This document shows, in pieces, positions 24,054-51,969 of a DNA stretch of 64,000 nt. Within the stretch, counting starts at the first letter, position 1. Every line of letters starts with the position of its first letter. Both the position numbers and the translations under genes were made by a program. The notes below the pieces were generated by a model. It saw only the letters and a list, made by a program, of their open reading frames with translations, had not been told where the DNA came from and ran no database searches. The DNA is taken from the NCBI GenBank assembly GCA_937139605.1, contig CAKZQG010000026.1:1-64000 (forward strand). The letters run 5' to 3'. This DNA comes from an uncultured bacterium (GTDB lineage Bacteria > DRYD01).

Positions 24054-24109
24054 CATTTTTCATTTTTTATTTTTTATTTTTTTATTTCAATTTCATCTTC
24101 TTTTCAATT

Positions 24110-24191: not shown

Positions 24192-24242
24192 TTTTTTAAC
24201 TTTATACCCATTTTAACATTTTTTGACAAATAGTTATTAATT

Positions 24243-24365: not shown

Positions 24366-24456
24366 AAATCTTCCACACGCTTCAAATAATTTTATAGAGG
24401 TATGCTGGTATTAAGTATTCTCCCATAAAATAAAAAGAAATCATGTATAAAATTAT

Positions 24457-24781: not shown

Positions 24782-24922
24782 TAACTTTTTTCTGAGCTTA
24801 TATCTATAGGTTCTTTTTGGTTAATAACATCCATCTAGTTTTTCCCCCTTTTTAAATCTATTAATTTAATTGATTTATCAGTTATTTACCTAGCTAATCA
24901 AAATATCCTACGTGAACTCTTT

Positions 24923-25203: not shown

Positions 25204-25205
25204 AG

Positions 25206-25395
25206 GTTCAAACTCCTCATAGCTAAGCTAAAACATATACTCTATAAGTTAATATTGGAATTTTAAAAATATTATTTCACTATAGCTCAAAAAAATCGGT
25301 TAAATTACTTATAGGTAAGCTAAAAACTAGAGTTGGAAATTATTGAACAAAAAAATTACTTAAAATTTCAATTCCTTATAGTTATTTTGAAAAAC
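25206..25395 (-). CRISPR. Fossil CRISPR fragment B (three decayed repeats)
   Basis: Three degraded copies of the repeat lie at 25206-25234 (23 of 29 bases match), 25299-25327 and 25365-25395. They are separated by 64 and 37 bp. The best-preserved blocks are TTATAGGTAAGCTAAAAAC in the second and TTTCAATTCCTTATAG in the third. Orientation is as in the active array. No intact leader follows on the right. Confidence 0.7.
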
Positions 25396-26646: not shown

Positions 26647-27525
26647 TTAAACGGCAAAAACTCCATATCCAAGAGATGTTTTTGCACCAATACCATAATT
26701 TTTTAGAGCTTCTTTTAATAACCTCTCAGCAATATTTAGTAAACCTTGATCTTCTCTTTTGGATGCTAAGTAAAAAGAAAACATAGTTCTTTCAACAGTA
26801 AGAAATTTTATCGGCTTTGGACTTTGCCAGTCTGCAGGAGGAGAATTTTCACTATAATAATTAGGATAGTGCGGGTTTATGATATCAATTTCTAATTTTA
26901 TCTCATCTATAGGAAATGCATCAAAAAAAATTATTTTTCCCTTCTGTTTTTGAGTACCAAAGATTTCAATTAAATTTTTAAAAGTAACACCATCTAAATT
27001 AATATCATCTATAGAAAAATAAACTTTTTCATCTCCATTGTCTAATTTTTCTGAAACTTTTTCAATTGCTTCTTGTATTTTCATGTTATTACTCTTAGCC
27101 CATATATCGGCAAATATTAAAACTGCCCAGTGCCTCGTTACACCTTTTACTGCACTCCCAGGAATATAAGGTACTCCATATATGTGATGAAGAGTCATTG
27201 ATGTTTCCTGGGGATGAGAAGCACCAAGTCCAATAATCATCCGCCAGCAAAGTTTTGCTGAAAAATATTTTATTTTCAACCCAGAATTTTTTAATACTGT
27301 TATTTTTCTTTGTTCTAAACTTTTAATAAGATCAGCGTTCCATTTAAATTTTTTAATTTCCTGATTAATTCTAATTTTTGATAGCTGTCCATTTTGCTCA
27401 ATGATATCTGACATGTTAAAAAAGTAGAAAAAGTTTTCTGAAATTTTGCAAGCCCTAAAGATTTCATAAGTATCCCTAGGAAAGTATCTATTTCTTTCTA
27501 TTGGTAACTTAATAAGGTGATTCAT
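26647..27525 (-). CDS. cmr6: Type III-B CRISPR RAMP protein Cmr6
   Basis: Cmr6 caps the backbone of the Cmr effector complex near the 3' end of the crRNA. The 292-residue protein has the RAMP signatures: GLGASHPQETSMTLHHIYGV followed by YIPGSAVKGVTRHW (about 108-140), a GSxxKG-type element. It ends in the glycine-rich loop KNYGIGAKTSLGYGVF. It overlaps cmr5 by 4 bp and ends the operon. Composition has fewer Asn and Ile than the I-B Cas proteins, as in the whole Cmr block. Confidence 0.93.
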   Translation of the reverse strand: MNHLIKLPIERNRYFPRDTYEIFRACKISENFFYFFNMSDIIEQNGQLSKIRINQEIKKFKWNADLIKSLEQRKITVLKNSGLKIKYFSAKLCWRMIIGLGASHPQETSMTLHHIYGVPYIPGSAVKGVTRHWAVLIFADIWAKSNNMKIQEAIEKVSEKLDNGDEKVYFSIDDINLDGVTFKNLIEIFGTQKQKGKIIFFDAFPIDEIKLEIDIINPHYPNYYSENSPPADWQSPKPIKFLTVERTMFSFYLASKREDQGLLNIAERLLKEALKNYGIGAKTSLGYGVFAV

Positions 27526-27935
27526 TCTTCTTCCTCCTCTATCATTCCTTCAGCAAACCTTTTAAGCCAGTTCAAAAAGGCAAGCAATTCCTGAGTTATC
27601 CAGCGGTATTCCCTGCTATCACAACTTATAACCCATTCAATAAGCTCGTTTTTATCAGGAGGCATTTGAATTCTTATTGTTGAGTTGCTCTTCATATATT
27701 CGGTTATCTGATTATACAATAATTTATAAGCATTTCCATCTTTTGCTTTAGCCTTCACAAAGGCAAGGGTCTGTCCAAGACCATTTAAAAGAATCATAGT
27801 AGGAATTTTTTTTACATAGGACCGATATTCTCTTTTTCCTTTTTCATTTAACTTATACGTTACCTGTTCTACACACCTATAAGCATATTCAGCTCTACCT
27901 TGTTCAAGTTTTTTTATTTCACTTTCCTTGCTCAT
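27522..27935 (-). CDS. cmr5: Type III-B CRISPR small subunit Cmr5
   Basis: Cmr5 is the small helical subunit that forms the minor filament of the Cmr complex and contacts target RNA. The 137-residue protein is all helix, with the family opening LEQGRAEYAYRCVEQV and PTMILLNGLGQTLAFVKAKA (about 46-66), and ends in a run of Glu. It overlaps cmr4 by 17 bp and cmr6 by 4 bp, as expected in a tightly coupled operon. Length is usual. Confidence 0.92.
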   Translation of the reverse strand: MSKESEIKKLEQGRAEYAYRCVEQVTYKLNEKGKREYRSYVKKIPTMILLNGLGQTLAFVKAKAKDGNAYKLLYNQITEYMKSNSTIRIQMPPDKNELIEWVISCDSREYRWITQELLAFLNWLKRFAEGMIEEEEE

Positions 27936-28935
27936 TTTTAACCTCCTCCAAAAATCCGATTCTTACAAGACCTTTCCCAATGGTTCGATTTCCTCCTATT
28001 TGAAGAACCTCGGGACAGCCTTTTTTAAAAAACTCTATCACATTTTCCGCTTCCCTAACAGAATCACTTCCAGCAAGTAGTCCTTTCATTTCTTTCTTTT
28101 CCACTCTTATAGAAGAGGCCATTACAAGAGAGTAAAGAATAGTATCGGTTGGAAGATATTCTTCTGTCCACAATGCACTAGATTGGACTGTACCAGTTTT
28201 TGCATCAATCTTTGTTCTTGTAATAATTTCTGTAGATGATTTTACAAATTCTTTGAAATCATCATTTGAAAGAATAACAAGGTCTTTTTCAAGTTTTTCT
28301 CTCCAGTATTTATATGGATCATTATTCCCTTTTTTAGGGAATATTTTTTCAGAAAGCCATTTAGCAAGTTTTGCGGTTTTTTCATTCGGCTTTACCTGAA
28401 ATGTGTATTCTTCAAAAACGACTTTTGAAGAGATTATCAGATTCGAGTTTTGCGAATATGTATTCTCAAGACCCGAAAATCCATCTATAAGAAGTTGAAT
28501 TCCAGCTAATTTTAAATCTTCTTTAAGTCTTTCAAGGATATCGGGACAAGTTATCCAACCAAAAACTCCTTTTAGAGATTTAAGGGGGAAAAGTAGAATT
28601 CTTGCATCTGTAAATACGATAGCTCCTGCATGAGTTTCTCCTTCTTCTGGACCAAATACAAGGGAAAGATAATCTCCTGCTTCTTTTTCTTTACCGTCTT
28701 CTTTATATTTTATTTTTTCTCTTGCCTTTATTTTATTTGAATTAATTTCTATTTCTGGATTATTTTCTTCAAATGCTTCCCTTATGGATCCTTTTAATCC
28801 CGAGGCTTCAATTTTTGGATATCCAGTATGTCTTTCTCTCTGAATTGGTAAATCAACAATTCCCAATTCGGAACCGCTTCCTGCATGAAGAGGTGTTTCT
28901 ACAATTATGAAAAATGGCTGGACCTTTTTAAACAT
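27919..28935 (-). CDS. cmr4: Type III-B CRISPR RAMP nuclease subunit Cmr4
   Basis: Cmr4 forms the repeated backbone of the complex and cuts target RNA every six nucleotides. The 338-residue protein starts with FFIIVETPLHAGSGSELGIV and has DLPIQRERHTGYPKIEASGL, where the conserved His of the thumb and the catalytic-loop Asp region occur (about 24-45). It then has GSIREAFEEN and a C-terminal glycine loop IGGNRTIGKGLVRI. It overlaps the CARF gene by 8 bp. All features agree with an active Cmr4. Confidence 0.93.
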   Translation of the reverse strand: MFKKVQPFFIIVETPLHAGSGSELGIVDLPIQRERHTGYPKIEASGLKGSIREAFEENNPEIEINSNKIKAREKIKYKEDGKEKEAGDYLSLVFGPEEGETHAGAIVFTDARILLFPLKSLKGVFGWITCPDILERLKEDLKLAGIQLLIDGFSGLENTYSQNSNLIISSKVVFEEYTFQVKPNEKTAKLAKWLSEKIFPKKGNNDPYKYWREKLEKDLVILSNDDFKEFVKSSTEIITRTKIDAKTGTVQSSALWTEEYLPTDTILYSLVMASSIRVEKKEMKGLLAGSDSVREAENVIEFFKKGCPEVLQIGGNRTIGKGLVRIGFLEEVKNEQGK

Positions 28936-30052
28936 CGTCTTCCTCCTCCTTAATTAGGATTTCTTTAAATTTGTGCTTGTTTAATATTTCTTCACTATAC
29001 GGTTGCTTTAAATATAATTCATATTCTTTGTGGTCATCAAAAACTGCATATACATACAACCTATCTTTTTTTCTATAAAATATTCTCAATTGATTATCCC
29101 CGTCATCATATACAAAATGTCCATTTTTATTTTCCGTTTTGCTTTCTCTTATCTCTTTTTTCCAGAATTTATCTTTAAATAACCTTTTTAAATCTTTGTT
29201 TTTTTGTATTTTTTCATGCACTTCTTCAGTTACTAATATAGTATAACTTTTACATTTTTCAAAGATAATTTTACCGATAGGGTTAAGTTCTGCTAAAGTT
29301 TCTTCAGCTTCCCAGATAAGATAACTATATTTTGTATAAAAATCACTTTGTTTTAGCTTCTCGTAATCGCTTTTATTATCAATTCCTTTTTCAAGTTTTT
29401 GGAATTCTTGAAAATAACTTTTGATTTCATCGCAATTTATCCAACTTACAGAAAAAGGAATATTTGGTATTTTAATCAAAGCATTTGTATCTTCAAAAAT
29501 ATAATATATTGGACATTGATTTAACTGAGCTAATATCGTAAGATAAGGAATTGTAGCTTTGTATCCTCCAGTTATATTAATTATGATATTTTCCCAATAA
29601 TACCCAGAAATTCTATAAATTTCATATATAAGATTACTCATCCCTTTATTAAAATCTTTTCTATCCCAAATTTGAAGATTTTCAATTATTTTCAACTGCT
29701 CAATATTACATGCAGGTATAATTTCAGGTATACATTCTTTTAATATTTCTCCTGCCAATTTACTCAATACTGTATCAGATGCTAAAAGATAGACTTCTAA
29801 ATCTTCATTGAGTTCTTCTGATATTTTTTTTAAACTTTTAACTTCTGCTGATATCTTATAAGCTTCATTTGCTTTTTGCTTAATCCATTTTTGAATTGCA
29901 TCTTTTATTTTATCAATTCTTTCTTTATTTCTTTCGTATTCATTTGCTCTTTTATCTTTTAAGTCCTCGTAATATTGTTTAATAGTTGTATTATCATTAT
30001 CCTTAAAGTAATTTTCAAAAAGAGATGTTCCAAGCATCGTTATTATTTTCAT
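28928..30052 (-). CDS. CARF-domain CRISPR ancillary protein with RelE-like C-terminus (Cami1-like)
   Basis: The 374-residue protein begins MKIITMLGTSLFENYF and carries the CARF core IINITGGYKATIPYLTIL (about 157-174) followed by PIYYIFEDTNALIKIPNIPF, the ligand pocket of Csx1/Csm6-like sensors of cyclic oligoadenylate. There is no HEPN R-x4-6-H motif. Instead, residues about 270-355 read like a RelE/ParE toxin: YTILVTEEVHEKIQKNKDLK then a strand-rich section LRIFYRKKDRLYVYAVFDDH and EYELYL. A CARF-RelE fusion is the layout of Cami1, which cleaves mRNA at ribosomes when activated. The RelE call is pattern-based. It sits inside the Cmr operon between cmr3 and cmr4. Confidence 0.78.
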   Translation of the reverse strand: MKIITMLGTSLFENYFKDNDNTTIKQYYEDLKDKRANEYERNKERIDKIKDAIQKWIKQKANEAYKISAEVKSLKKISEELNEDLEVYLLASDTVLSKLAGEILKECIPEIIPACNIEQLKIIENLQIWDRKDFNKGMSNLIYEIYRISGYYWENIIINITGGYKATIPYLTILAQLNQCPIYYIFEDTNALIKIPNIPFSVSWINCDEIKSYFQEFQKLEKGIDNKSDYEKLKQSDFYTKYSYLIWEAEETLAELNPIGKIIFEKCKSYTILVTEEVHEKIQKNKDLKRLFKDKFWKKEIRESKTENKNGHFVYDDGDNQLRIFYRKKDRLYVYAVFDDHKEYELYLKQPYSEEILNKHKFKEILIKEEEDDV

Positions 30053-30054
30053 AT

Positions 30055-31164
30055 TTACACCACTCCTATTAAAGCCAAACCAAAGCCTTCTTCTGGAAAT
30101 ATATCGGAAATGTTCTTAAAATGAAACGCCTCCATAATTTTCTCTATATTGATATTATCAAGTATCCTAAAATAATATACACTACCAGCTGGAATAGCTT
30201 TTCGCATCGGCTTTGGGTTGTTATTAGCAATATCCCAACCACCAATAAGCTTATATTCTCCAATACAAGCACCTATAAGTTGTAGATTTATTCCTTTATA
30301 TTCTCCTTTAAAAGTTTTTGTGTCTATCCATTTTGGTAACCATCCGTTTTCAAAAATAGAAGGTGTAGCAAAATATATTTTGAACATTCCATTACTTATA
30401 TCAATATCAATATTTTCTATTCCCATTGTATTTTCTATTCCCATTGTAAGATCAATAATTTTTTGAATTTTTGCGGTTTTACCTTCTCCTCCTAATTGTA
30501 TTATTCCCTCTTGAGGAATATTCTTTACACCTTCAATTTTTATTAAAATAGAAACTTCATTTTTTAGTCTTATCATTGGAACTCTATAAAGATGAGCTTC
30601 CTTTGCAGTACAAGTTAATTTTTCTCTTGCAATTCCAATTTTAGGTTCATGAATAAAAAATTCCTTTTGCCTTAAAATTCTAATGCTATCTTCTCCTTTT
30701 AGATAAGTTTTCAAATAAATAAGAGTCATATAACCCTCTGCTTCTTCTACTTGTTCTCTTTTTTGCCATATTAAAATATTTTCTAAAGGATAGTCAGAAA
30801 TAAAAATTTCTGGTTTGTTTAGTAGATATAGGGGATATAATTTATCTTTATCTTTAGTATTTTCTTTATCTTTGATTATAACTAAATCAAGAGGAGGCAC
30901 AAAATTTAATTCGTCTGTCATTAAGAAAGGCCCTTTAATAGAAAGTGCTCCTTTTTTATTCTTTGTCCCAAGATCTTCTTCAAATTTACCATCAAGAAAA
31001 TCTTTTAAACTTCCTCTTTCAAAAATTAGCCAACTTCTTACTGCTCCATAAACTGTAGATGGATAAGGTGGGAAAATAGTTTCTCCCCAGGTTTCTGAAC
31101 CCATAGTAAAGGGTTTTCCATCTCTAAAAAATAAAGTATCCTTAGGAATAATTTTATACCACAT
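30055..31164 (-). CDS. cmr3: Type III-B CRISPR RAMP protein Cmr3
   Basis: Cmr3 binds the 5' handle of the crRNA and docks Cmr2. The protein has the family start MWYKIIPKDTLFFRDGKPF and SETWGETIFPPYPSTVYGAV (about 23-42), and RIAREKLT-like text as IGIAREKLTCTAKEAHLYRV. The C-terminal loop reads FPEEGFGLALIGVV. I chose the ATG at 31164, one base after the cmr2 stop, because the family starts exactly there and GGGAGA lies just upstream. A longer frame to 31221 would overlap cmr2 by 56 bp. The length is then 369 residues, normal for Cmr3. Confidence 0.92.
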   Translation of the reverse strand: MWYKIIPKDTLFFRDGKPFTMGSETWGETIFPPYPSTVYGAVRSWLIFERGSLKDFLDGKFEEDLGTKNKKGALSIKGPFLMTDELNFVPPLDLVIIKDKENTKDKDKLYPLYLLNKPEIFISDYPLENILIWQKREQVEEAEGYMTLIYLKTYLKGEDSIRILRQKEFFIHEPKIGIAREKLTCTAKEAHLYRVPMIRLKNEVSILIKIEGVKNIPQEGIIQLGGEGKTAKIQKIIDLTMGIENTMGIENIDIDISNGMFKIYFATPSIFENGWLPKWIDTKTFKGEYKGINLQLIGACIGEYKLIGGWDIANNNPKPMRKAIPAGSVYYFRILDNINIEKIMEAFHFKNISDIFPEEGFGLALIGVV

Positions 31165-31165
31165 A

Positions 31166-33931
31166 TTAATCTCCCTTATTGATAAAAGATAAAATTTCAA
31201 TGATATTAGAAAAATTGTCAATATTCATACCTGATGCAACAAATAGCTTCCATACTTTATCGTGAAACTCAATACAAAATTCTTTCTTTTTCTTTTTTTC
31301 TCCATTGTATGCTCTAATAGCAAGTCTTTTAAGTTCTGTTTTAGCAATTTGTTCATTACACAATAAATATCCTAATGAATCTTCTGTATTATTTTTGAGT
31401 TTTATAAATTCCATTTTAAATTTCTGTACAAATCCATGTGAAATATATTGTTTAGTATCTGGGTTCATCATTTCTTTTATCCCTTTCATTAAATCTGTTA
31501 TTAACTCAAATTTTCCATTTGTTTTAATTATCCATTCAAATACAGAAACTCTTTCTTCCCCAGATTTCTTTATTAATGAAATTGCGAATCTATTTTTTCC
31601 TTGGGATTTGGCTTTTTTCTTCATTTTATAAACTTTATCAATTACAAGTTTTAATGGTTCCTTATAGTGAGCAATTACAATCCCCATTGAACAAGTTGCA
31701 TTTTTACCCATTGTTAAATAATAAATATCTTCCTTTAGAACAAAACCACTTGTTTGATTAATATCTACGTTAATTTTATTATTTTTAACTTTAATATGTC
31801 CTGAAAAAGCCCACCTTAGTTTTTCTATCACATCCATCAAGTCTTTCAAATTAACAAAAGCGAAGACATCATCACCACCTGCATAGACTAGCTTTCCTAG
31901 ATGCTCTTCTTCTACAATTTTTCTTACAAACTCTATGGCATAATTTTTCAAGGCCCTTGAAATAGCTGAATGAATAGCAGGAGTTAGAAACTTTTTGCCT
32001 ATTTTTTGTTGCAAGTCTTTTTTAAAGGCTTCAGGTAGTTTTACCCATGTATTGCTATTATAAGCATATTCAATATTTGGTAAAAGTTCCCCTGAAAGCC
32101 AACGTCCCATGTTATCTCCATCCAGATAAATAACAGCATAGTATGGATTTGGGTTGCCAATCTTATCTTTTATAGACTTCAAACATCTTTTTAGTTTCTC
32201 TATTTCTTCATCACTTATTTCTAATCCCAATTCTTTTTTGATAAATTCTTTCTTTAAATTCTCTTCAAAAAAGTATTCTCCTTCAAGGTTTTTAGTCAAA
32301 CTTTCTTTTAATTTAGGCAAGGGAGTTCCTTCAGGGAGTTTTTTATTTAACATCTCTTTTATGTAGCTTTCCATATCTTCTTTAGCTTCTTTTAATGCTC
32401 TTTCTTTAAAATCAGAAGCAGCAATCTCAGCTGTTGAAGGAAAACCAAAATCTTTAAATTTCTCGTTCATTTTCCCAGCTAAAGTATTTAAATAAGCGTC
32501 AAAAGTTCTTTTGAAAAAGCACAATCCACATAATCCTTCTCCATCAGATAGATATTTCCTTGGAAACTCTTTAATATCCTTTAGATTGATAGCTATGGGA
32601 TTATATCTTGAAAATCTTTGAGGGTTTTTCTCTTCCCTATAAAATAAGACATTTCTTTCTCCACAGAGTGAACATTTTCTTCCTTTTTCTTCAAAATAAT
32701 TAAATTCTCTTAAATTTTTTCTTGCACCAATAAATTTTTCAAGAACTGTATAAAAAAGCTGATATAATATTCCAATATTAGGAGGATTTTCTCCTGTTTC
32801 TTGTGCAAATTTAAATATTTCCTTCCATTTATCTATTTCGTTTTTTTCAATAAAATTTGTTAAGTCATCAATAGCTAAATCTCTGTTTTTAATCTTCCAG
32901 GGTACAGAAACCCAATAGATCTGAGGAAAATCACTCAAATGGTTATCAAATATATTCTTTTGGTATTCTGTTAAAGTTAAATTTAACTCATTTAAAATCC
33001 TTTCTTTTGCAGCTTTTATTTCACTTTGAATTTTTTCTTTCATTTTTTGAGCAATTTCCTTTAATTTACTTTCATCAGTTAAAGGAATAATTGCCACAAA
33101 TCTGTTTGGAATGGTTGGTAGATCAACAAAAGGAGAATATGAATTTCTTAATGGTATTTTTTGTTCTTTTTCATCTTCTTCAAGAAGCCAGTCTATAAGT
33201 GGCTGTTTATATAAATCAGGGTAAATTATAGATGTTGGTCCAAAGTGATTTATAATTTCTTTGATTGCAACAAAAGTTAAATATGATAGGATAAAACTCC
33301 CCATATAAAAATCTTGAGTTTTTCTTGCTTGAGAAATAAAAGATTGGACAGGTCCTATAGTAAAAAGAAAAAGAGAATTGTTTTGATATAAGATTTTATC
33401 TTTTTCATTCCAGAAAGCGTTTAGTGTTGAAGTGATTTTTAGATGTTCCCAGATAGAATGGTCTGGGATCCTTGTGTCAGCTGGTAATATAGGGAGATAT
33501 TTTAGCCATATTTTGTGATTTTCTTTATCTTTTAAAACTGAAAAAATTTCATCTTCAAGATTTCGCCACATATAAAAGAACTTACGTTTATCGTCATAAT
33601 TTAACAAATCAAGGTTTAAAAAAACCTCTTCTATAGAACTAAAAATTTCATCTTTATCAATAGATAGTGTAAATTCTAACTTTCCTTCAGATAAAGGATG
33701 TCTTATTTCATTAAACTTTTGATATATCTTTTTTTCTTTTGGAAGCAAACTTCTCTCCATACAAGAAGCAATCAAGTCTGAACCTTTTGATTCTTTTAAA
33801 TTACTTATCCCAATTTTTTCAGCATATTGCTCAGCCCTTTTTTCATGAGTTACAATCTCAAAACATTTATCAACTGGGTCATGAAGGATCGATTTAAGCT
33901 TTTCTAAAAAATTATTATTATTGCTATTCAT
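31166..33931 (-). CDS. cmr2: Type III-B CRISPR large subunit Cmr2 (Cas10)
   Basis: Cmr2 is the Cas10 subunit: it makes cyclic oligoadenylate, and in some systems cuts DNA, when target RNA is bound. An N-terminal HD-like remnant reads KLKSILHDPVDK (about 10-21). A zinc-binding region has CSLCGERNVLF and CGLCFFKRTF. The first Palm has AVIYLDGDNMGRWLSG (about residue 600), and the second keeps the cyclase motif YAGGDDVFAF (about residue 683), so synthesis should be active. I start at the ATG of 33931 (MNSNNNNF), preceded by GGAG and overlapping cmr1 by 8 bp. A longer frame begins at 33964. Size is typical. Confidence 0.95.
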   Translation of the reverse strand: MNSNNNNFLEKLKSILHDPVDKCFEIVTHEKRAEQYAEKIGISNLKESKGSDLIASCMERSLLPKEKKIYQKFNEIRHPLSEGKLEFTLSIDKDEIFSSIEEVFLNLDLLNYDDKRKFFYMWRNLEDEIFSVLKDKENHKIWLKYLPILPADTRIPDHSIWEHLKITSTLNAFWNEKDKILYQNNSLFLFTIGPVQSFISQARKTQDFYMGSFILSYLTFVAIKEIINHFGPTSIIYPDLYKQPLIDWLLEEDEKEQKIPLRNSYSPFVDLPTIPNRFVAIIPLTDESKLKEIAQKMKEKIQSEIKAAKERILNELNLTLTEYQKNIFDNHLSDFPQIYWVSVPWKIKNRDLAIDDLTNFIEKNEIDKWKEIFKFAQETGENPPNIGILYQLFYTVLEKFIGARKNLREFNYFEEKGRKCSLCGERNVLFYREEKNPQRFSRYNPIAINLKDIKEFPRKYLSDGEGLCGLCFFKRTFDAYLNTLAGKMNEKFKDFGFPSTAEIAASDFKERALKEAKEDMESYIKEMLNKKLPEGTPLPKLKESLTKNLEGEYFFEENLKKEFIKKELGLEISDEEIEKLKRCLKSIKDKIGNPNPYYAVIYLDGDNMGRWLSGELLPNIEYAYNSNTWVKLPEAFKKDLQQKIGKKFLTPAIHSAISRALKNYAIEFVRKIVEEEHLGKLVYAGGDDVFAFVNLKDLMDVIEKLRWAFSGHIKVKNNKINVDINQTSGFVLKEDIYYLTMGKNATCSMGIVIAHYKEPLKLVIDKVYKMKKKAKSQGKNRFAISLIKKSGEERVSVFEWIIKTNGKFELITDLMKGIKEMMNPDTKQYISHGFVQKFKMEFIKLKNNTEDSLGYLLCNEQIAKTELKRLAIRAYNGEKKKKKEFCIEFHDKVWKLFVASGMNIDNFSNIIEILSFINKGD

Positions 33932-34823
33932 TGACCAACTCCTTAATAAAATTTTTTTGTTCATTAAAATTACATTCTGGGTAATTTTTAGGGAATACAG
34001 GGTTTAATATAGTGATTATGGGTTTTAATTTCCCTTTTGTAATAACTCCAGAGACATAAACTGGGGAAGCCATTCGTGGGTTTGCGTTGCCTAATGAAGG
34101 ATCCTTATATTTATGAGATACATTCCCGATAAATTCTAAAAATTCATTATAATTCCTAAATTCTCTGTTACTTAGTATAATTTCTTGTATCCATGGGTAT
34201 TGTAACTGATGTATTTTTTTATTTATAATTGCTTGAACATTATTTATAATTTTTGAATTCGCAATTTCATATCTTCCGTTATTTATTCCATTTAATAAAA
34301 TAAGGATATCATTTAAACTTTTTATTTCCTTTTTGGGGTAAATTATTTCAAAACTTCCAAAACCTCTTCTTGAGCGTTTTCCAAAACCACCCAAAATAAA
34401 TGCTAAGTAAATTAAATTTTCTATCCAATAAAGATTTTCTTGAGTAACAAAAAAAACAATTTGTATTTCTTTTTCTGGTTTTACTGCTTTTCTCTCAAAT
34501 GCTTTCTTACAATTTATTTTTTCGTCGATTGTACAATAATTCCTTTTATGATGTGGCAAAAGTTGATAGTCTATTTTATCGGATTCATTTAATTCAGTTA
34601 AAATTCTTATGTATAATTTACTCTTACCTTCTTTTTCTATACTACCGAAAATTTCTGCTTCTTCTTTTTTTAATTTTTGGATATTATCCTCAGCTTTTAT
34701 TGCTCTCCACCACCACCGCATCATCCCTTTAAATTCTGTAGGTCTTAGTTCTGTGGTCTCTTTATCTGAGCCAGCCATAAACATTGGGGTTATTAGCTTA
34801 CATCTTAAATTCAATTCCTTCAT
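33924..34823 (-). CDS. cmr1: Type III-B CRISPR RAMP protein Cmr1
   Basis: Cmr1 lies at the 3' end of the crRNA in the Cmr complex. The protein opens with LRCKLITPMFMAGSDKETTE and LRPTEFKGMMRWWWRAIKA (about 28-46), the strongest Cmr1 signature, and has the glycine-rich LGGFGKRSRRGFGSFE. I placed the start at the ATG of 34823, after GGAGAGAAG. The frame is also open through ATGs at 34838 and 34850, the last one inside the terminal CRISPR repeat. Only about 20 bp lie between the array and this gene, so it probably has no promoter of its own. First gene of the operon. Confidence 0.94.
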   Translation of the reverse strand: MKELNLRCKLITPMFMAGSDKETTELRPTEFKGMMRWWWRAIKAEDNIQKLKKEEAEIFGSIEKEGKSKLYIRILTELNESDKIDYQLLPHHKRNYCTIDEKINCKKAFERKAVKPEKEIQIVFFVTQENLYWIENLIYLAFILGGFGKRSRRGFGSFEIIYPKKEIKSLNDILILLNGINNGRYEIANSKIINNVQAIINKKIHQLQYPWIQEIILSNREFRNYNEFLEFIGNVSHKYKDPSLGNANPRMASPVYVSGVITKGKLKPIITILNPVFPKNYPECNFNEQKNFIKELVNE

Positions 34824-34843
34824 ATCTCTTCTCTCCATTAACT

Positions 34844-35543
34844 GTTTCAATTCCTTATAGGTAGGCTAAAACTCAGTGTTTTTATGCCATTAAATACAGT
34901 TATAGTTCGTTTCAATTCCTTATAGGTAGGCTAAAACTATTAGCAACAAAAACAAAACTTAAAAGAGAATATTTGTTTCAATTCCTTATAGGTAGGCTAA
35001 AACTTTCTTTGGTAGGGGTTTTGCAACCCCTACCTTGTTTCAATTCCTTATAGGTAGGCTAAAACATTCGTATCTTATCTCTAATCTCTTCCTTATACTT
35101 ACGTTTCAATTCCTTATAGGTAGGCTAAAACGAATAGAGATAGTATAGGGATGGAATAGGGATAGAGAGTTTCAATTCCTTATAGGTAGGCTAAAACGAG
35201 ATCTTCCTTTTTGAGGAAGATCTCGTTGACTGGAGTTTCAATTCCTTATAGGTAGGCTAAAACCTCCTTGGATTGGGATTTTTTCCTAGTTGAGCTTATG
35301 TTTCAATTCCTTATAGGTAGGCTAAAACGGAGTAAGGAGGAAAGTATGAGTTTATTGAAATTAGGTTTCAATTCCTTATAGGTAGGCTAAAACATAAAAA
35401 ATAAAAAAATTCTCTCCCTGCAGGCAGGGGAAAAGTTTCAATTCCTTATAGGTAGGCTAAAACAATAACTTCTACTATGAGTTATGAGTATAGTAATAGA
35501 TTATAGCACAATAAGTTTCAATTCCTTATAGGTAGGCTAAAAC
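34844..35543 (-). CRISPR. CRISPR array, 11 repeats of 29 bp and 10 spacers
   Basis: Repeats start at 34844, 34909, 34975, 35037, 35103, 35169, 35235, 35300, 35365, 35435 and 35515 and are identical. On the plus strand each begins GTTTCAATTCC and ends GGTAGGCTAAAAC. On the transcribed minus strand the 3' end is therefore ATTGAAAC, the form typical of I-B and III-B crRNA tags. Spacers, left to right, are 36, 37, 33, 37, 37, 37, 36, 36, 41 and 51 bp. The leader is on the right, so the 51-bp spacer is the newest. Spacers 3 and 6 are perfect hairpins, and 9 and 10 contain shorter inverted repeats. Confidence 0.99.
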
Positions 35544-35860
35544 CCGTAAAGTAAATTTTTTACTTTCTATAATAAAATTAAATAAGAAATAAAAAAATCC
35601 TTCTTAAAAAATAATAAAAAATTTCCGTCGATCGGAGATACCCCCAAAACTCCTAAGGGATCGACGAAACAAGTAATACCAAGATAAAAACATCAATACA
35701 TAAAGAAAACCATTGAAAAATAAGAAACTACATAAGCATAATCAATCCCTTGAAAATAAAAGAATAAACAATTGTAAAAATTTAATTAACAATTTTGTAA
35801 TATTTTTTTAACAAATAAAAATCGATCGACGGAAACATTTTTATTGACTTTTGTCAATAT
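35544..35860 (-). promoter_or_regulatory. CRISPR leader
   Basis: AT-rich sequence adjoining the leader-proximal repeat. It holds a GC-containing inverted repeat, CGTCGATC (35626-35633) and GATCGACG (35659-35666), and a further GATCGACGG at 35824-35832, all unusual in this base composition. The palindrome TTGACTTTTGTCAA lies at 35844-35857. Read on the minus strand it begins TTGACA, a -35-like element, but no matching -10 is clear. The same leader, decayed, occurs at 24953-25203. It probably drives the array and guides Cas1-Cas2 integration. Confidence 0.85.
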
Positions 35861-35898
35861 TTTTAACACATCTTCTAAAAAATTACTATTCATCCTCT

Positions 35899-35953
35899 AA
35901 TACACTTCCCTAAATACACTTCCTTAAATACACTTCCTTAAATACACTTCTCA
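35899..35953. repeat. Four tandem copies of a 14-bp unit
   Basis: The unit AAATACACTTCCTT is repeated four times with small changes in the outer copies. It lies between the leader and the end of cas1. From here to 36083 the sequence is AT-rich with several ATCA/ATCC patches and no gene. Confidence 0.8.
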
Positions 35954-36083
35954 TACATCTCCTATATCAAAAATCAATTTCCTTATTATAAAAAATCATC
36001 ATTATCAAAAATCATCCACATTGTTTTATCTACAATTCCCTTGTTTTATCACAATTCTATTATTTCTATTATTATCAATTTCA

Positions 36084-37201
36084 CTACCAATCACTAACAA
36101 AAGGCTCAAAATCCTCCTCACCTATCAAATGTTTCTCTAACTTATATAACTCCATCCTAATTACCCTCCTATAACTAACTTTATTTATTTTTTTTAAATT
36201 TATAGTAGTATTTAACCTTTCTTCAAGATATTTTATAAACTTCTTTTTTCCATCCTCATTCAAATAAGTAATACCTAAATCCTCATTAAAATCATCTGCT
36301 GATATAATCTTCTTATTAACTAAAGTAAAAATAGTTCTATCAACAATAACAGGCTTAAATATTTCAGAAATATCCAGATTCAAAGAAAATTTTCTATAGG
36401 TAGCCGAATGTAAAAAACCTATCCTAGGATCTAAATGAGTCCTATATATTTCACTCAAACAAATACTATACAAATAAGAATTACCAAAACTAATCAAAGC
36501 GTTAATTTTATCAGCAGGCGGGCGTTTTGAACGCTTATCAAAATAAAAATCCTCATTCCTCATAATTTTATTGAAAGCTCTATAATAAATAGCCTTACTA
36601 TTCCCTTCATAAGCCATTAACTCCTCTATATTCTTACATCCATTAACTTTCTCTAAAAAAATCGATATAGAAGATATCTCATAATCTAAATCATATCCCC
36701 TATTTTTGTAATAATTCAAAATCCGTAAGCTATTAAGAATAGCTCCAATAGTAATCGCCTTGGCTAAAAAAACCCTTTTATTAGTATCTAAATAATGCTC
36801 AACCTGCTTTAAAAGAATAAAACCAGAATTATAAAATTCCCTTGGATAATACGTACCCTCATAATAACCATAATAATTATAAAAATGAACCAAAATATTA
36901 TGCTTAGAAACAAAATCCAAAAACTTTTTAGTTATATAAAAACTATTAGAAAATATATGTATCTCGTTAATAGCATTAAATGGAATATATTTTTTATTAA
37001 TATTCTTAGAAGATCTTTGATTCTGATTATTTAAATCCTTACTATCTGTATCTTATCTTCACAATTATCTAGATGATTATCATCAAATTTTTCAATATTA
37101 TCAAGCTCTTCAATATTACGTTGAGTACTTTCTTGAAAATATATAGTATTTTGTTTTCTTTTTAAATAACCATCCTTAAAAATAAAAAGTGGTTTCCTCA
37201 T
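36084..37201 (-). pseudogene. cas1: CRISPR integrase Cas1, interrupted by a frameshift
   Basis: Cas1 with Cas2 inserts new spacers. The C-terminal frame (from 37053 leftward, including an ATG at 36920) has HNILVHFYNYYGYYEG, the RAFNKIMRNEDFYF and RPPADKINALISFGNSYLYS block, HLDPRIGFLHSATYRKFSLNLDISE and the metal ligands typical of Cas1. The N-terminal 50 residues are in another frame starting at an ATG at 37201 (MRKPLFIFKDGYLKRKQNT, a classic Cas1 start). The frames meet at GATAAG, about 37052-37057, where one base is missing. The join falls in an Asn/Asp-rich insert of about 45 residues between beta strands that most Cas1 proteins lack. Restoring one base would give a protein of about 373 residues. 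A real lesion would stop adaptation. Confidence 0.85.
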
Positions 37202-37229: not shown

Positions 37230-37493
37230 CTAAATTATATTAAAATCAGAATTCTTCAATACCCCCATATTATCTCTAATTAAATTTTTTTTATTAGGTA
37301 ATATATAAAAAATAACAGAATCATAATTTTCATCAATAACTTCCTTCAATTCTTTTTTTAATTTTAACAGGTTAGCATCAGTTATCTCACCTTCCAAAAC
37401 AGAATTCTGAATCCAGTTAAGATACTTTCTAGCAACTTTTAAAACCTTAGATACTCTTTCCTCAGACACATCATAAACCATAACTAAATACAT
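37230..37493 (-). CDS. cas2: CRISPR-associated protein Cas2
   Basis: Cas2 is the small dimeric scaffold of the Cas1-Cas2 integrase. The 87-residue protein has the ferredoxin-fold start MYLVMVYDVSEERVSKVLKV with the conserved Asp, then YLNWIQNSVLEGEITDANL and a C-terminal strand VIFYILPNKKNL. Length is normal. Transcription runs from cas2 into cas1 with a 28-bp gap, the reverse of the usual cas1-cas2 order. Confidence 0.95.
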   Translation of the reverse strand: MYLVMVYDVSEERVSKVLKVARKYLNWIQNSVLEGEITDANLLKLKKELKEVIDENYDSVIFYILPNKKNLIRDNMGVLKNSDFNII

Positions 37494-37542: not shown

Positions 37543-38304
37543 TTAAAGGATATCAAACATACCAAATCCTTGAGAATTCTTAGCTCCTAAACCTACATCG
37601 TAAGCAAACTTTATAATATCTCTATCCCCACTAATAAAAAAATTACCATAAAACCCCTTTATCACATAATCACCTTTATACATTATAACCCTACAATGCC
37701 TCTTATAATCAAAAGAACCTAATTCTAAATTAAAATTAAAATTATCTTCATTCAAATTAGCTAAATAAAAAGAATTATACTTCTTTAATAAATTAAGTTT
37801 TATAAGCCTATAAAATTCCTTCTCCAAAGGAGAATAATAATAAGTTTTCTTCAAACTTCCTCCATTACTTAAAGTACTATAAACAGTTATAGGAGACAAT
37901 AACCTTATAGATACCCCTTTTATACATGAATCATTAAAAACAGTAGGATACTTAATAACTTCAATAGATTTAAGATAAATAACATTTTTAAATAATATAA
38001 ATTTTTCATTTAGTACAAAAGATTTAGCTAAATTAGCTAACAAATCATCTAAAACAGAAGAAATATAAAAATAAAACTCCTTATTTATATTAATCATTTT
38101 GTTTTGAATAATGCCTTTAGGAAATATTTTAGAAAAAACAAAAAGCTTAAACTTTCTTTTATTATATGAATAAGCATTGTTATGAATAAATTCAGATAAA
38201 TTTGGATCAATTATATTCTTATAAATAAAGCTTTGTAAAACATAATTGTAATGAACCGGTAAAATGATATTTCTATCAGAATAAAACGTTAATTTTATCC
38301 TCAT
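37543..38304 (-). CDS. cas6: CRISPR pre-crRNA endoribonuclease Cas6
   Basis: Cas6 cuts pre-crRNA within the repeat to leave the 8-nt 5' tag. The 253-residue protein has two RAMP-like folds: it opens MRIKLTFYSDRNIILPVHYN, with a His in the catalytic helix region, and closes with the glycine-rich loop GLGAKNSQGFGMFDIL. Size is standard for Cas6b. It is the only Cas6 in the window, so it probably serves both the I-B and III-B complexes. Placed between cas4 and cas2, which is unusual, since cas6 often leads I-B operons. Confidence 0.92.
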   Translation of the reverse strand: MRIKLTFYSDRNIILPVHYNYVLQSFIYKNIIDPNLSEFIHNNAYSYNKRKFKLFVFSKIFPKGIIQNKMININKEFYFYISSVLDDLLANLAKSFVLNEKFILFKNVIYLKSIEVIKYPTVFNDSCIKGVSIRLLSPITVYSTLSNGGSLKKTYYYSPLEKEFYRLIKLNLLKKYNSFYLANLNEDNFNFNLELGSFDYKRHCRVIMYKGDYVIKGFYGNFFISGDRDIIKFAYDVGLGAKNSQGFGMFDIL

Positions 38305-38327: not shown

Positions 38328-38882
38328 TTAGCTAAAGCAATAGAATCTATAAGCACATTTTTCACAAAAAACTATTTTCTTAAATTTAGGTGGCTTTTCA
38401 TTTTTTATAATATTAGTTATAGAATCTATACATTCCTTTAATTCCTTTTCTAGCTCAGGAGTTAATTCCACTTTTATATTTTTTTTCTCTAACGGTATCA
38501 ATAAATTAGCAGTTAAGGTAGGTATAATATTTTTTAGAGTATATAAATAAAAAGCTACCTGCATGATTGCCGGCTTTATAAACTTCGAACTTTTTTTTAT
38601 TTCCCCAATTATTACTGTATTCTCTTCTGATAATCTTATAATATCTATCTTTATATTCTCAAATATAAACTCTTTTTTTTCGTTAGTGTAAAATATTTCA
38701 TGAATTGTTCGACCAACCTCTAAATAAGGGTCTTCTTGATCAGAATTGATATTTCTACTTATAAACCAAACTTGTCTATGACAAACATAATAATACCAAA
38801 CTAAAACCCCCATTATCCTTATCTCCTCATTATTACTATAAAAATCCAAATCCTCTTTTAAATAGTCTTTAAATATATCCAT
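38328..38882 (-). CDS. cas4: CRISPR-associated exonuclease Cas4
   Basis: Cas4 trims and PAM-selects prespacers for Cas1-Cas2. The 184-residue protein has one Cys in YYYVCHRQVWF (about 34), the RecB-like nuclease residues in EVGRTIHEIF and IIGEIKKSSKFIKPAIMQVAFYLY split by a short loop (E-x-K and Q-x3-Y), and the C-terminal iron-sulfur cysteines in CEKCAYRFYCF. All four cluster cysteines are therefore present. It is free-standing, not fused to Cas1. Confidence 0.94.
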   Translation of the reverse strand: MDIFKDYLKEDLDFYSNNEEIRIMGVLVWYYYVCHRQVWFISRNINSDQEDPYLEVGRTIHEIFYTNEKKEFIFENIKIDIIRLSEENTVIIGEIKKSSKFIKPAIMQVAFYLYTLKNIIPTLTANLLIPLEKKNIKVELTPELEKELKECIDSITNIIKNEKPPKFKKIVFCEKCAYRFYCFS

Positions 38883-38946: not shown

Positions 38947-41451
38947 TCAAAATAATAATAAATCTTCATTTTTAGGTATAAAACCTGTTTCTTTATCATA
39001 ATAATTTTCAAGCATAGAATTACACACATATAAAAAGCCATTATTTTCTACAGGTAAATTTTCTTTAGCATATGTATAAGAAACATTTATAACATATGAA
39101 TAGAATTCTGATTTTATTTTTAAAAACCTTTCTCTTTGCTTATAATAATCTTTTCCCTTTTTTAAATTAGAAATGATATCACAATATTCTTGCCAGATAT
39201 TTACGGCATTTTCATCAATCTCAATAAAAATAGGATATTCTATATACTTCCGCTCGATTAAATTAAATAAACTAATATTACTGAAATTCAATTCCTTTAC
39301 ATAATTAATTAGTTCATAACTAACATCTTTAGAAACCTTGTTTATTAGTAAATTATTATAAATTTCGTATATATTATAAAAATCTTTTTCATATATTTCG
39401 TTGGAATTAATTTCTAATATCATATTTATAGTATTTTCAGTTAAAATCTTATCGTAAATATATGAATAAAAATACCTTTGATTTTTTTCATCTAATATTT
39501 TGTATATATCAATATTACATGGTTGTAGGTTATTATAATTTCTATTAGTTCTACCAGCAACTTGTATTATACTATCTAAAGGGCCAAAATCTCTTATAGC
39601 GTAATCAAAATCAAGATCAACCCCAGCTTCTATCAACTGAGTAGAAACCACTATCTGCTTGTAATTATCATACATTCTATTCTTTATATCCTTTATTATC
39701 TGTAATCTTTGTTTAGGGATTATATGAGAACTTAAAAAGTAGATCTTTATTTGATTATCTATTATTTCTTGTTTTAATAATTTATAAAATTCTTTTGCAG
39801 ACCTTATTGTATTCAAAATTACCAGTATATTTCTATAATATTTAAAAACATCTAAGAGTTTATTTTTTAAATCCTGTAAAGTTAAATCTTCGTAGATATT
39901 AAAGTTTATTTTTACTCTATTTAGATTTATATAAAGCTCTTTGTAAGCAAGTGTTTTATTAGTTTGTAAAATTATAGGTTTTGTAGCAGTAGATAAAATA
40001 AAATAATTGTTAAAATAATAAGATAAAGCCTTAAAAATTGTATTTAAAAAAGAATAATATTTATAGGGGATATTTTGAACCTCATCTAAAATTACAATAG
40101 AACTAATCAAATTATAGAATCTCATTAAAGTCGAGACTTTATTTTTAGTAATAGTTTCAAATAATTTAACAAAAGTAGTTAAAACTATGTGGGAATCCCA
40201 ATTTTCAATCATTAACTCTCCCTTTAGTAAATCCAAGTATTCTATATTTTCATCACTATTATCAATCTTATACTCAAATTTACTAAGATAATGATGAGAT
40301 ATATATAAATTACTTGTTAAATTAATTTTTTTAAAATTAAAAGCCTTTTTTATTAATTCATCTACCTGGTCTATTATACTTAAAAAAGGTAAAGAATATA
40401 TTACTTTAGGATGATAATTAAAATTTGATTTTATTTTTTCTTTAATTTTTAATGCTAAATTTAAATTAATAAGAGTTTTCCCTATACCTGTTGGTAAATT
40501 TACCCCTATAATATTATCAAATAAATCATTTAAAATTTCTTGCTTTATTTTATTATAAGTTTCTTGCCTTAACTTTAAAAATTGATTACTATTATTTTCA
40601 ACATCTTGATTTAAAGTATTTTTATTTAAGTTATTTACATAATCATCGAAAATATCATAATCTATAAAATCTTGATTAAAATAAAACAATTGAATATTAG
40701 CTGCGTCTCTTCTATCAGCAAATAAAAGTATAGACATAATTAAAAAAGTAAATATATATTTACCTGCAAGCTCATATAAACTATTTTCATTATCCAACAC
40801 TAAAATCTTTTCATTTAAATTAACTATTTCTTTATAAATTTTACAAAAACTTACTTTATTGAAGTATTTATGGAATTCATTATAATTATATAATAAATTT
40901 TTCGTATTATTTAAAGATTTTTCTAAATAAGGGATTTCATTAAAAAAACTATTATCTAAATTCTCTTCAATTGAATTTAACTGTTCTTTCAATATGTCTA
41001 TATTATTTTTATCAATAGATATATTATCATATAGATTTTCTAAATAACTATGATGTTTTTTTATAACTATAAAACCTATATATGGAATAATATATCTTAA
41101 TTCTTCTGAAATATTTTTTGGGATTAAGTATTCTTTTAAAGCAAAGAAAGCTAATATAGCAGATATTAATGAATGTTTAGTTAAAGGAGATACTTTTAAC
41201 TTATTTTTTTTATTATTATTAGTTTCAAATAAATATTCTTGGAAATATTTTGTAGCTTTGCCAAGATCATGATAATACGCTATTATTAAAGATATATCTA
41301 TTAATTCATCTTTATTTAAGCCCATTATATTATTTTTTACAAAAATATTAGAATAAAGCTTTTTAGAAATATTAGCAGTATTTCTTAGATGATCTATCAA
41401 ATACTTATCAGGATGAGAATATAACATAATCTTAGTTTCTAAAATATTCAT
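38947..41451 (-). CDS. cas3: CRISPR helicase-nuclease Cas3 (type I-B)
   Basis: Cas3 is recruited by the I-B Cascade to nick and unwind target DNA. The 834-residue protein has an N-terminal HD nuclease domain with IIAYYHDLGKATKYFQEYL (about 53-71) and KHSLISAILAFFAL. It then has an SF2 helicase with Walker A LPTGIGKTLINLNLAL (about 318-333), the Walker B variant ILDEVQNIPYKYY, STATKP, and motif VI IQVAGRTNRNY. DEVQ replaces DECH/DEAH. HD and helicase are in one chain, as usual for I-B. It starts immediately after cas5 stops. Confidence 0.95.
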   Translation of the reverse strand: MNILETKIMLYSHPDKYLIDHLRNTANISKKLYSNIFVKNNIMGLNKDELIDISLIIAYYHDLGKATKYFQEYLFETNNNKKNKLKVSPLTKHSLISAILAFFALKEYLIPKNISEELRYIIPYIGFIVIKKHHSYLENLYDNISIDKNNIDILKEQLNSIEENLDNSFFNEIPYLEKSLNNTKNLLYNYNEFHKYFNKVSFCKIYKEIVNLNEKILVLDNENSLYELAGKYIFTFLIMSILLFADRRDAANIQLFYFNQDFIDYDIFDDYVNNLNKNTLNQDVENNSNQFLKLRQETYNKIKQEILNDLFDNIIGVNLPTGIGKTLINLNLALKIKEKIKSNFNYHPKVIYSLPFLSIIDQVDELIKKAFNFKKINLTSNLYISHHYLSKFEYKIDNSDENIEYLDLLKGELMIENWDSHIVLTTFVKLFETITKNKVSTLMRFYNLISSIVILDEVQNIPYKYYSFLNTIFKALSYYFNNYFILSTATKPIILQTNKTLAYKELYINLNRVKINFNIYEDLTLQDLKNKLLDVFKYYRNILVILNTIRSAKEFYKLLKQEIIDNQIKIYFLSSHIIPKQRLQIIKDIKNRMYDNYKQIVVSTQLIEAGVDLDFDYAIRDFGPLDSIIQVAGRTNRNYNNLQPCNIDIYKILDEKNQRYFYSYIYDKILTENTINMILEINSNEIYEKDFYNIYEIYNNLLINKVSKDVSYELINYVKELNFSNISLFNLIERKYIEYPIFIEIDENAVNIWQEYCDIISNLKKGKDYYKQRERFLKIKSEFYSYVINVSYTYAKENLPVENNGFLYVCNSMLENYYDKETGFIPKNEDLLLF

Positions 41452-42303
41452 CTAAAATATACTTATACTTAATTTAGAGTTAGTATTATCTTTTAATATT
41501 AGTGTTTTTTTTAATGTAGCTTTTATAGTTTTTGCATTATTCTCAAATAAAAAAACTTTATATTTTATAGTTTGTCTATTAGGATCCATTAAATAAGCTA
41601 CCTTTTCTTTCATATAAAACTTATTCTCTAAGCCTAAATTTAATTCTAAATTTTCTAAATTATCTATATCTATTATGGTATTGAAATCAGAATTATAGTT
41701 TTCTTTTATGTCTATTATTTCATATTCATTTATATATTGATAATTCAATAAACAAAAACTTAAACCCATATATGGAGTAAATACAGCCAATCTATTTAAT
41801 AAATTATATTTTAATTTTTGGTATATATTTTGATCTTCAATAGAAACATATATTCTATAGCTAGGGTTCTTTAAGAATTCAATATTAACTTGAGTCCTAT
41901 AGATCTTAATAGGTTCTTTGAGTTTAGAAATATCTTGAAATATTTTTGTTCTTTGGCCATCTGATTTACAATCAACTAAATTTAAACCTAATCTTATTTT
42001 ATTCACTGGATTTAACAAACTTAAAGCTATTATAGTATTATCTGGTTTCATTAATTCAAAATATTCGCTATTATTATTGCCATAAATATCCTTAGGTATG
42101 CCAACTATAGCAGCTATTATACCTATTATCGCTGTTCTTGGAATAATAGAGAATGTCAAAGGAGAAGATGTAGTATAGTACTTCCTAAAATGCCCATAAT
42201 CAGAATATATATCAAATACCAAAAATTTATTATTACTTTTCTTTAAAACTAACTCATAAATATTCTCATTGATCTCATTTATATTTTTGTTTGCATTCAT
42301 CAC
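41452..42303 (-). CDS. cas5b: Type I-B Cascade subunit Cas5
   Basis: Cas5 holds the 5' tag of the crRNA in Cascade. The 283-residue protein has FDIYSDYGHFRKYYTTSSPLT-type text (about 30-50), then SIIPRTAIIGIIAAIVGIPK (about 52-71), the signature of Cas5 in I-B systems (Csh-type). The rest is a weakly conserved RAMP fold, with a TYMGLS-like AVFTPYMGLSFCL segment. It abuts cas3 exactly and follows cas7. Confidence 0.92.
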   Translation of the reverse strand: MMNANKNINEINENIYELVLKKSNNKFLVFDIYSDYGHFRKYYTTSSPLTFSIIPRTAIIGIIAAIVGIPKDIYGNNNSEYFELMKPDNTIIALSLLNPVNKIRLGLNLVDCKSDGQRTKIFQDISKLKEPIKIYRTQVNIEFLKNPSYRIYVSIEDQNIYQKLKYNLLNRLAVFTPYMGLSFCLLNYQYINEYEIIDIKENYNSDFNTIIDIDNLENLELNLGLENKFYMKEKVAYLMDPNRQTIKYKVFLFENNAKTIKATLKKTLILKDNTNSKLSISIF

Positions 42304-42357
42304 CTTTTATCACCTTGTGTATATATTATTTTAAGTATATATTATTTTAAGTATATA

Positions 42358-43254
42358 TCATTTTAGATTTCTCAACTCTTCTAAATTAATATTATTTTTT
42401 AATTCATCTATATAAGGCTTATATATTAGATTTGGATTTATAATATACCTTATTTTTTCTATTTTATCTTTGTTATTTATTAGCGTATCATATAGCTCAG
42501 TTAAATCCAATTCATAATCCTTATAAGATCTTATATATTCATCTTTTTCGACTTTAAGATTTAATTTAATTTTTTTATCTAAATCTCCAATATGAAAATT
42601 ATTTTGCTTATATACTATTTGTAGTAATAATCTACTTTGTTGAGAAGGTTTAGATCTTGTTATTAAATTATTAGTGCCGTAATAGATAGCTTCTAAAAGG
42701 AGCTCAACATCTTCTTCCGTTAATTGAGTTTCCTTAGCAGCATTCTCGTTAATTATTCCATAAAAACAAATTAATGAATAAGGTAATAAATAAGTTTCCC
42801 AGAATGTTCCTTGCTGTCTTTCACTAGCTGATGGTAAAACTGTTGTACCCTTTATATAATTTATATCCACTTTATGTAAAGATCTTCCAAATTTAAATTG
42901 TACAGGCCCTGTTAAAGCATAATTATTGTTTTTTATTGAAAAAGTCCCTCCAAATAATCTTATATCTATACACCTATTTATTACCTCATTTAATTCTTTA
43001 TATGCTTGAAAAATTTCGTCCCTTGTTTTTAGGTTATTATTTTCATCTCTTTCTTTTCTAATAAATATCTCCCTACCTTTAAAATCCTGTAAATAATCTC
43101 TTATTGTTCTTTTTAATCTGACATCAGTTACTATATTATAATTAGTTAATTCATCTATTCTTGGTTTATTATCTAAAGCATCCCCATTAGGATTACCATT
43201 TTCTATATCATATATAAATAAAATCTCACTTCTATTTTTTATAATATTACTCAT
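42358..43254 (-). CDS. cas7b: Type I-B Cascade backbone Cas7 (Csh2)
   Basis: Cas7 polymerises along the crRNA to form the Cascade backbone. The 298-residue protein opens with RSEILFIYDIENGNPNGD and ALDNKPRIDEL, the diagnostic Csh2 start. RLKRTIRDYLQDF, DIRLFGGTFSIKN and TGPVQFKFGRSLHKV follow. The end is short and Asn-rich. Length and order (cas8b, cas7, cas5) are standard for I-B. Confidence 0.95.
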   Translation of the reverse strand: MSNIIKNRSEILFIYDIENGNPNGDALDNKPRIDELTNYNIVTDVRLKRTIRDYLQDFKGREIFIRKERDENNNLKTRDEIFQAYKELNEVINRCIDIRLFGGTFSIKNNNYALTGPVQFKFGRSLHKVDINYIKGTTVLPSASERQQGTFWETYLLPYSLICFYGIINENAAKETQLTEEDVELLLEAIYYGTNNLITRSKPSQQSRLLLQIVYKQNNFHIGDLDKKIKLNLKVEKDEYIRSYKDYELDLTELYDTLINNKDKIEKIRYIINPNLIYKPYIDELKNNINLEELRNLK

Positions 43255-43315
43255 TTAACTTTCACCTCCAATTTCTCTTTTAAATTTTTATTTTTTAAAT
43301 TTTTAATTTTTAAAA

Positions 43316-50574: not shown

Positions 50575-50587
50575 ATTTTAGTTTTTT

Positions 50588-51908: not shown

Positions 51909-51969
51909 TTTTTTTATATATTTTTTTAAATTTTTCCCAATTTTTTTATTTTTTTTACAAAAAATAAAG

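Follow-up and report, generated by a model that had tools for sequence, protein, structure and literature searches.

The window, by which we mean the whole stretch of 64,000 nucleotides that was analysed, contains at positions 34844-35543 a CRISPR array of 11 identical 29-nt repeats and 10 different spacers, read on the minus strand, whose spacers measure, from 1 to 10, 36, 37, 33, 37, 37, 37, 36, 36, 41 and 51 nt. The cas and cmr genes that flank it on both sides are all read on the minus strand as well. On the high-coordinate side lie cas1 (36084-37201), cas2 (37230-37493), cas6 (37543-38304) and cas4 (38328-38882), followed by a type I-B effector set (cas3, cas5b, cas7/csh2 and a cas8b-type gene of the TM1802/Csh1 kind, 38947-45127), and on the low-coordinate side lies a type III-B operon (cmr1, cas10/cmr2, cmr3, a ring-nuclease-like gene, cmr4, cmr5 and cmr6, 26647-34823), with the likely ATG of cmr1 at 34823, only 20 nt beyond the last repeat of the array. 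The cas1 gene is split into two open reading frames: a profile search places the first (37031-37201) at positions 2-36 of the Cas1b profile and the second (36084-36920), in another frame, at positions 51-324, which reflects either a frame change or an assembly error. A second cas1 is present elsewhere in the same genome (contig C6, 140368-141204).

Between cas1 and the array there are 540 A+T-rich bases (35544-36083, minus strand) that form the leader side. Three other contigs of the genome (C4, C16 and C22) end in a sequence 98% identical to the first 46-48 nt of this leader, in each case just beyond an array built on the repeat of the window array. Since the leader is at the high-coordinate side, the crRNA sense is the minus strand, toward cmr1; in this sense the repeat reads GTTTTAGCCTACCTATAAGGAATTGAAAC, and we take ATTGAAAC to be the probable 8-nt handle of the crRNA, as for type I-B/III repeats. 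The repeats, the adjoining cas and effector genes and the shared leader are all those of an array shared by type I-B and type III-B systems. The window array is thus a working-type array serving both modules and, as such, an ordinary one: it is like other GTTTCAATTCCTTATAGGTA-type arrays that serve I-B and III-B modules in its repeat family, its spacer length, its A+T-rich leader, its cas1/cas2/cas4/cas6 genes and the presence of both effector sets next to it.

Two other regions of the window carry related sequences. Downstream of cmr6, at 24080-25400, there is a decayed CRISPR locus, with degenerate repeats at about 24112-24191 and 25298-25392 and, at 24957-25169, a decayed copy of the first ~200 nt of the leader, 77% identical to the live one. 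Further along, at 50300-52100, A+T-rich repeats of the TTTGTTAAAAATTTGTTAA type stand beside TTATCCACA-like boxes in what is possibly an origin region, and parts of these repeats look like the CRISPR leader and like some A+T-rich spacers.

Two spacers of the window array are perfect hairpins, exactly as an earlier note on this DNA had described them. Spacer 3 (35004-35036) contains at 35011-35034 a perfect 10-bp stem with a 4-nt loop, GGTAGGGGTT-TTGC-AACCCCTACC, and spacer 6 (35198-35234) a perfect 11-bp stem with a 5-nt loop at 35198-35224, GAGATCTTCCT-TTTTG-AGGAAGATCTC, which becomes a stem of 14 bp (35195-35227) when it is allowed to run into the final AAC of the repeat before it. Their folding energies are -19.3 and -16.0 kcal/mol, respectively, and none of 100 shuffles of either spacer was equally stable. 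The same note had mentioned shorter inverted repeats in spacers 9 and 10. These do exist, as a perfect CCCTG/CAGGG stem of 5 bp in spacer 9 (35394-35434, 41 nt) and a 6-bp stem in spacer 10 (35464-35514, 51 nt, adjoining the leader), and they are marginal or ordinary: spacer 9 folds at -11.1 kcal/mol, with 2 of 100 shuffles as stable, and the fold of spacer 10 is weak (-4.2 kcal/mol with the handle). We have therefore left both out of the count of hairpin spacers.

The genome itself (a draft assembly of 45 contigs) contains 58 matches to the repeat with at most 3 mismatches, one of them an isolated degenerate match at 24163 outside any array, and four arrays with this same repeat, of 6, 25, 12 and 10 spacers, that is 53 spacers in total. 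Taking for each spacer its best perfect stem with a loop of 3-12 nt, stems of at least 8, 9, 10 and 11 bp are found in 7, 5, 5 and 4 of the 53; in 200 dinucleotide shuffles of the same spacers the means were 0.76, 0.26, 0.095 and 0.035, and the maximum at 9 bp or more was 2, as against the 5 observed. As comparators we used one scan of genome contigs (at least 118 stretches), in which 2040 spacers came from loci of three or more repeats, and 1949 of them were kept after dropping duplicates and loci with an unresolved repeat end. Stems of at least 8, 9, 10 and 11 bp occur in 19, 7, 5 and 2 of these 1949 (at 9 bp or more, 5/53 against 7/1949; Fisher one-sided p = 7e-6). At that threshold the comparator spacers (0.36%) do not differ from ordinary DNA, represented by 11168 37-mers from their flanks (0.38%); in a sample of our own genome outside the arrays the corresponding figure is 41 of 8546 37-mers. 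When at least four GC per arm are demanded in a stem of at least 9 bp, 4 of the 53 spacers still qualify, against 2 of the 8546 37-mers of the genome, and in the comparators 5 of 1949 spacers and 18 of 11168 flank 37-mers. This is also where the present arrays depart from other GTTTCAATTCCTTATAGGTA-type arrays: 13% of their spacers (7/53) have stems of at least 8 bp, against 4.2% at most in any comparator repeat group of at least 20 spacers. Across the 53 spacers the folding z-score has a median of 0.0, and therefore a few true palindromes stand out without any general shift. The statement of the earlier note that random prespacers rarely do this is thus upheld; the note had itself raised the objection that shuffled or other spacers might be equally rich in hairpins, and the excess survives both the shuffles and the comparison with about 2000 other spacers. 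It is likely real, and it is made up of few cases.

Where do these hairpins come from? The earlier note had suggested the hairpin DNA of a mobile element, and had proposed a search of viral and plasmid databases. We think that such DNA is indeed the likeliest source; the search brought no protospacer for any hairpin spacer, either in exact scans of viral sequences for the stems, in blastn (against phages for two of the four arrays, for one of which plasmids were covered as well) or in the host genome and its relatives. Searches of the whole genome with patterns for spacer 3, spacer 6 and the 13-bp stem shared by spacers 12 and 25 of contig C16 (described below) matched only the spacers themselves, so that self-targeting, or an origin from a host repeat, can be rejected. 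A local comparison of the 53 spacers with 321,156 of the 1,881,279 bases of the genome gave, among the matches listed, only short or A+T-rich ones. The stem core of spacer 3 is found in three viral stretches. In one of them (L160) the same 22 nt, loop included, lie between an anti-restriction-like reading frame and the next one; the flanks differ, and we rejected this contig as the source, so that all the match tells us is that viral intergenic DNA can contain such hairpins. In a second (L161) the palindrome is inside a reading frame whose only relative found was itself, and we dropped the similar reading frames that run through the spacer 3 palindrome in viral stretches, as they follow from the palindrome itself. 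The stem core of the C16 pair is likewise present in three viral stretches, with other loops and flanks, and these were rejected as a source too; the exact C16 stem was not found in the scan of the viral collection. An origin of the hairpin spacers in foreign palindromes nevertheless appears likely.

Foreign palindromes need not be those of phages. The spacers could instead be directed at REP- or MITE-like palindromes dispersed through related bacteria or their plasmids, and there is a precedent, in what PMC4814470 relates of a Flavobacterium spacer that matches a dispersed 125-bp imperfect palindrome. Our hairpin spacers resemble that one in being drawn from palindromic DNA, and small-hairpin repeats adjoin the arrays of two related genomes, G002 and G003. 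The Flavobacterium element, as described there, is repeated in host-related genomes, whereas our searches outside the array brought up no copy: in eight genomes, our own and seven others (five of them of its own family or order), the C16 stem occurs with up to 3 mismatches in two spacers only, and spacers 3 and 6 match only themselves in our own genome. We regard dispersed elements as a possible, if doubtful, source.

It could also be argued that nothing needs to be explained, two hairpins having been noticed by chance among ten spacers and the rest being due to small numbers and to AT-rich sequences of low complexity. The independent cases are indeed few (four hairpin spacers with stems of at least 9 bp, if the C16 pair is counted once), the comparator arrays have no excess over their own flanking DNA, and an array from the same genus has no stem of 9 bp or more in 31 spacers. 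As the finding had been selected on the window array, we set apart the 43 spacers that lie outside the window. Of these, 5 have stems of at least 8 bp (p = 1e-4) and 3 of at least 9 bp (p = 0.001); with the C16 palindrome counted once, the numbers become 4 (p = 0.001) and 2 (p = 0.014) out of 42, so that the excess recurs there, although more weakly than in all 53. Two of the four held-out hairpins of at least 8 bp (spacer 17 of C16 and spacer 11 of C22) are AT-rich and resemble the A+T-rich repeats of the host, with partial matches to those at 50-52 kb of the window. Base composition does not seem to be the answer, in that AT-matched comparators have no higher rate (5/964 at 9 bp or more), and the GC-containing stems are, as we have seen, rare in the host genome. 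Chance combined with selective noticing is therefore, in our opinion, unlikely.

If the excess is real, one may ask whether, in capturing prespacers, the adaptation machinery of the strain favours hairpin or cruciform DNA. Among its four arrays, which have a common repeat and leader, three do contain stems of at least 8 bp, and a review, in its passage on the matter (PMC9180970), has Cas1-Cas2 integrating, in the absence of a CRISPR locus, near inverted repeats capable of forming cruciforms; that passage concerns the integration site and not the choice of prespacers. Against such a preference, the comparator spacers contain hairpins at the rate of ordinary DNA, and stems located at spacer ends are no commoner than in flank DNA (14/54 versus 58/243). 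The relatives point the same way. The earlier note had proposed counting inverted repeats in related arrays, and the excess that holds for the four arrays of our genome does not extend to them: in the same-genus genome G001, the array of 31 spacers mentioned above (L206) has a single 8-bp stem and adjoins a cas1 whose product is 63% identical to the window Cas1; two other arrays of this genome have 3 spacers, two of them identical (L207), and 7 spacers, with one 9-bp A+T stem (L208); and the array of G002 has no stem above 6 bp in 18 spacers. On the arrays L206 and that of G002, which are small samples, we rejected the idea that the excess is a property of the lineage, and their lack of it argues against an inherited preference of the machinery. 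Since the comparator spacers behave like ordinary DNA and L206 is devoid of GC-rich hairpins, the excess is particular to this one genome, without a basis in CRISPR adaptation in general or in the lineage. A capture preference thus strikes us as very unlikely.

Some further observations were made in these relatives. In four loci (L197, L198 and L199 of G002, L203 of G003) degenerate repeats follow one another every ~89 bp, and the 56-60-nt "spacers" between them are near-copies of each other that often hold two small hairpins, GATTGCgaaGCAATC and TATCCAACgaaGTTGGATA; these degenerate repeats join the leader-distal side of true arrays and recur at several contig ends. Spacers from two species of one genus, spacer 3 of our contig C4 and one in L206, have in common the sequence GTGGGGGGGGGAGAT, which includes a run of nine G.

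The part of these data that is most worth following is, in our view, a pair of spacers on contig C16. Spacer 12 reads G-AGTTCAGGGAAGG-AATTGAA-CCTTCCCTGAACT-AA and spacer 25 reads GG-AGTTCAGGGAAGG-TTCAATT-CCTTCCCTGAACT-AA: the 13-bp stem, the flanks and the leader-nearest end are common to both, and the 7-base loop is reverse-complemented. Aligned directly, they match at 29 of 36 positions, and all 7 differences make up the loop, as its exact reverse complement. Because the contig ends in the leader start of the window array and spacer 25 adjoins this leader, spacer 25 is the younger of the two, and because the leader-nearest end is common, one boundary was used twice. A more familiar explanation would be that the two are an oppositely oriented pair taken from one protospacer, with no inversion of the loop. 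Such pairs amount to 1-3% of spacers in one study, where earlier examples are also named (PMC4814470), and the reverse complement of spacer 12 does match spacer 25 at 33 of 36 positions. The C16 pair is like the "pair-mated" spacers of that paper (where Shmakov et al. 2014 is also named) in that both members lie in one array and span a common 33-nt core, and differs from them, as they are described there, in that the flanks agree when the two are read in the same direction, the inversion being limited to the loop. In the opposite-strand alignment all three comparable flank bases disagree (TT vs GG, C vs A); under loop inversion the three agree and the ends coincide. The spacers are therefore not reverse complements of each other once the flanks are included, and to explain them as an oppositely oriented pair seems to us as improbable as a capture preference. 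A single loop inversion with unchanged flanks is the simpler account of the two sequences. Fold-back synthesis of the arms during acquisition is disfavoured, both flanks being in common, and the reading frames that can be followed by eye through hairpin spacers (e.g. EFREGIEPSLN in spacer 12 and EFREGSIPSLN in spacer 25, each ending at a stop) are not evidence.

Small inversions of hairpin loops are known in chloroplast DNA, according to the relevant part of PMC12371153 and to Kelchner and Wendel 1996 cited there. The C16 pair is like them in that the loop is reversed between inverted repeats while stem and flanks are kept, and differs from the cases reported there in that the inversion is seen here in two stored spacers alone. 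Among the results listed in our literature searches on palindromic or self-complementary spacers, none described a pair of spacers with an inverted loop, although one may still be in print. Other pairs of spacers deserve mention in their own right. In Caldicoprobacter algeriensis, spacers 20 and 65 of one array (L107) have the same 21-nt hairpin sequence at their ends, in opposite orientation, and this sequence occurs at only those two places in that genome. In our own genome, spacer 20 of C16 and spacer 7 of C22, and likewise spacers 4 and 12 of C22, share cores of 15-17 nt (CGCTACTGAATGGGAA and GACGGGNAGTACGAAAT) in different surroundings, as if related invaders had been sampled repeatedly.

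Finally, the earlier note had raised the idea that, in a read-through transcript, the hairpins attenuate expression of the cmr genes that follow, and this we consider extremely improbable, as a scan of 1.6 kb (34600-36200) detected no terminator-like site, that is no stable stem with a run of U, on the minus strand, and the sole such site (against 0.8 expected) is spacer 3 on the plus strand, antisense to the pre-crRNA and to the direction of cmr. The adjacency that inspired the idea is real, since cmr1 begins so close to the last repeat that read-through is plausible, and on the minus strand spacer 6 is followed by GTTTTAGCC; the minus-strand tail of spacer 3 is AAAGAAAG. In E. coli, in the portion of PMC4499155 that bears on this, transcription can end at a palindromic repeat that has a T-tract behind it, and so a different spacer could in principle do so here.

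What has been observed is that the hairpins exist, that they exceed expectation, that they do not turn up elsewhere in the genome where it was searched, and that they are limited to a few spacers, the others being ordinary. We think it somewhat probable that they are ordinary spacers cut from true palindromes in foreign DNA, one of which was stored twice with its loop inverted. The source would be viral or plasmid DNA absent from the databases. In the case of C16, the loop would have been inverted in the target by the kind of exchange that inverted repeats allow, and the host would have stored the site twice, first in its older form (spacer 12) and later in its inverted form (spacer 25). The hairpins would have no function for the host and would, if anything, be weak guides: folded with the 8-nt handle, spacer 3 reaches -19.3, spacer 6 -16.3 and the two C16 spacers -22.7 and -22.2 kcal/mol, and a guide that folds on itself is expected to be poor, so that the hairpin spacers are probably poor guides, judging from these folds. 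It is a conjecture that the inversion let an invader escape; such an inversion would give the guide a central run of 7 mismatches. One could go further and imagine that the machinery, or the invaders themselves, make palindromes preferred sites of memory, and that the array has recorded a loop-flip escaper which was stored again at the same site; we would give this broader scenario only a small chance, if a slightly better one than the capture preference discussed above.

What can be said more generally is that the 1949 comparator spacers with this repeat family contain perfect hairpins as often as ordinary DNA does, and that, with this as a baseline, a simple scan is enough to pick out an array that departs from it. 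If the hairpin spacers come from palindromes of invaders, they mark sites whose loops can invert while the stem is kept, and loop inversion at palindromes would be a route of escape from guides that is not usually considered. Over its stem, a palindromic guide would match either strand, and this could be of consequence for the type III module, which needs a match to the transcript. And if the broader scenario were true, the array would read out loop inversion, a type of mutation that is overlooked by studies of escape through point mutations.
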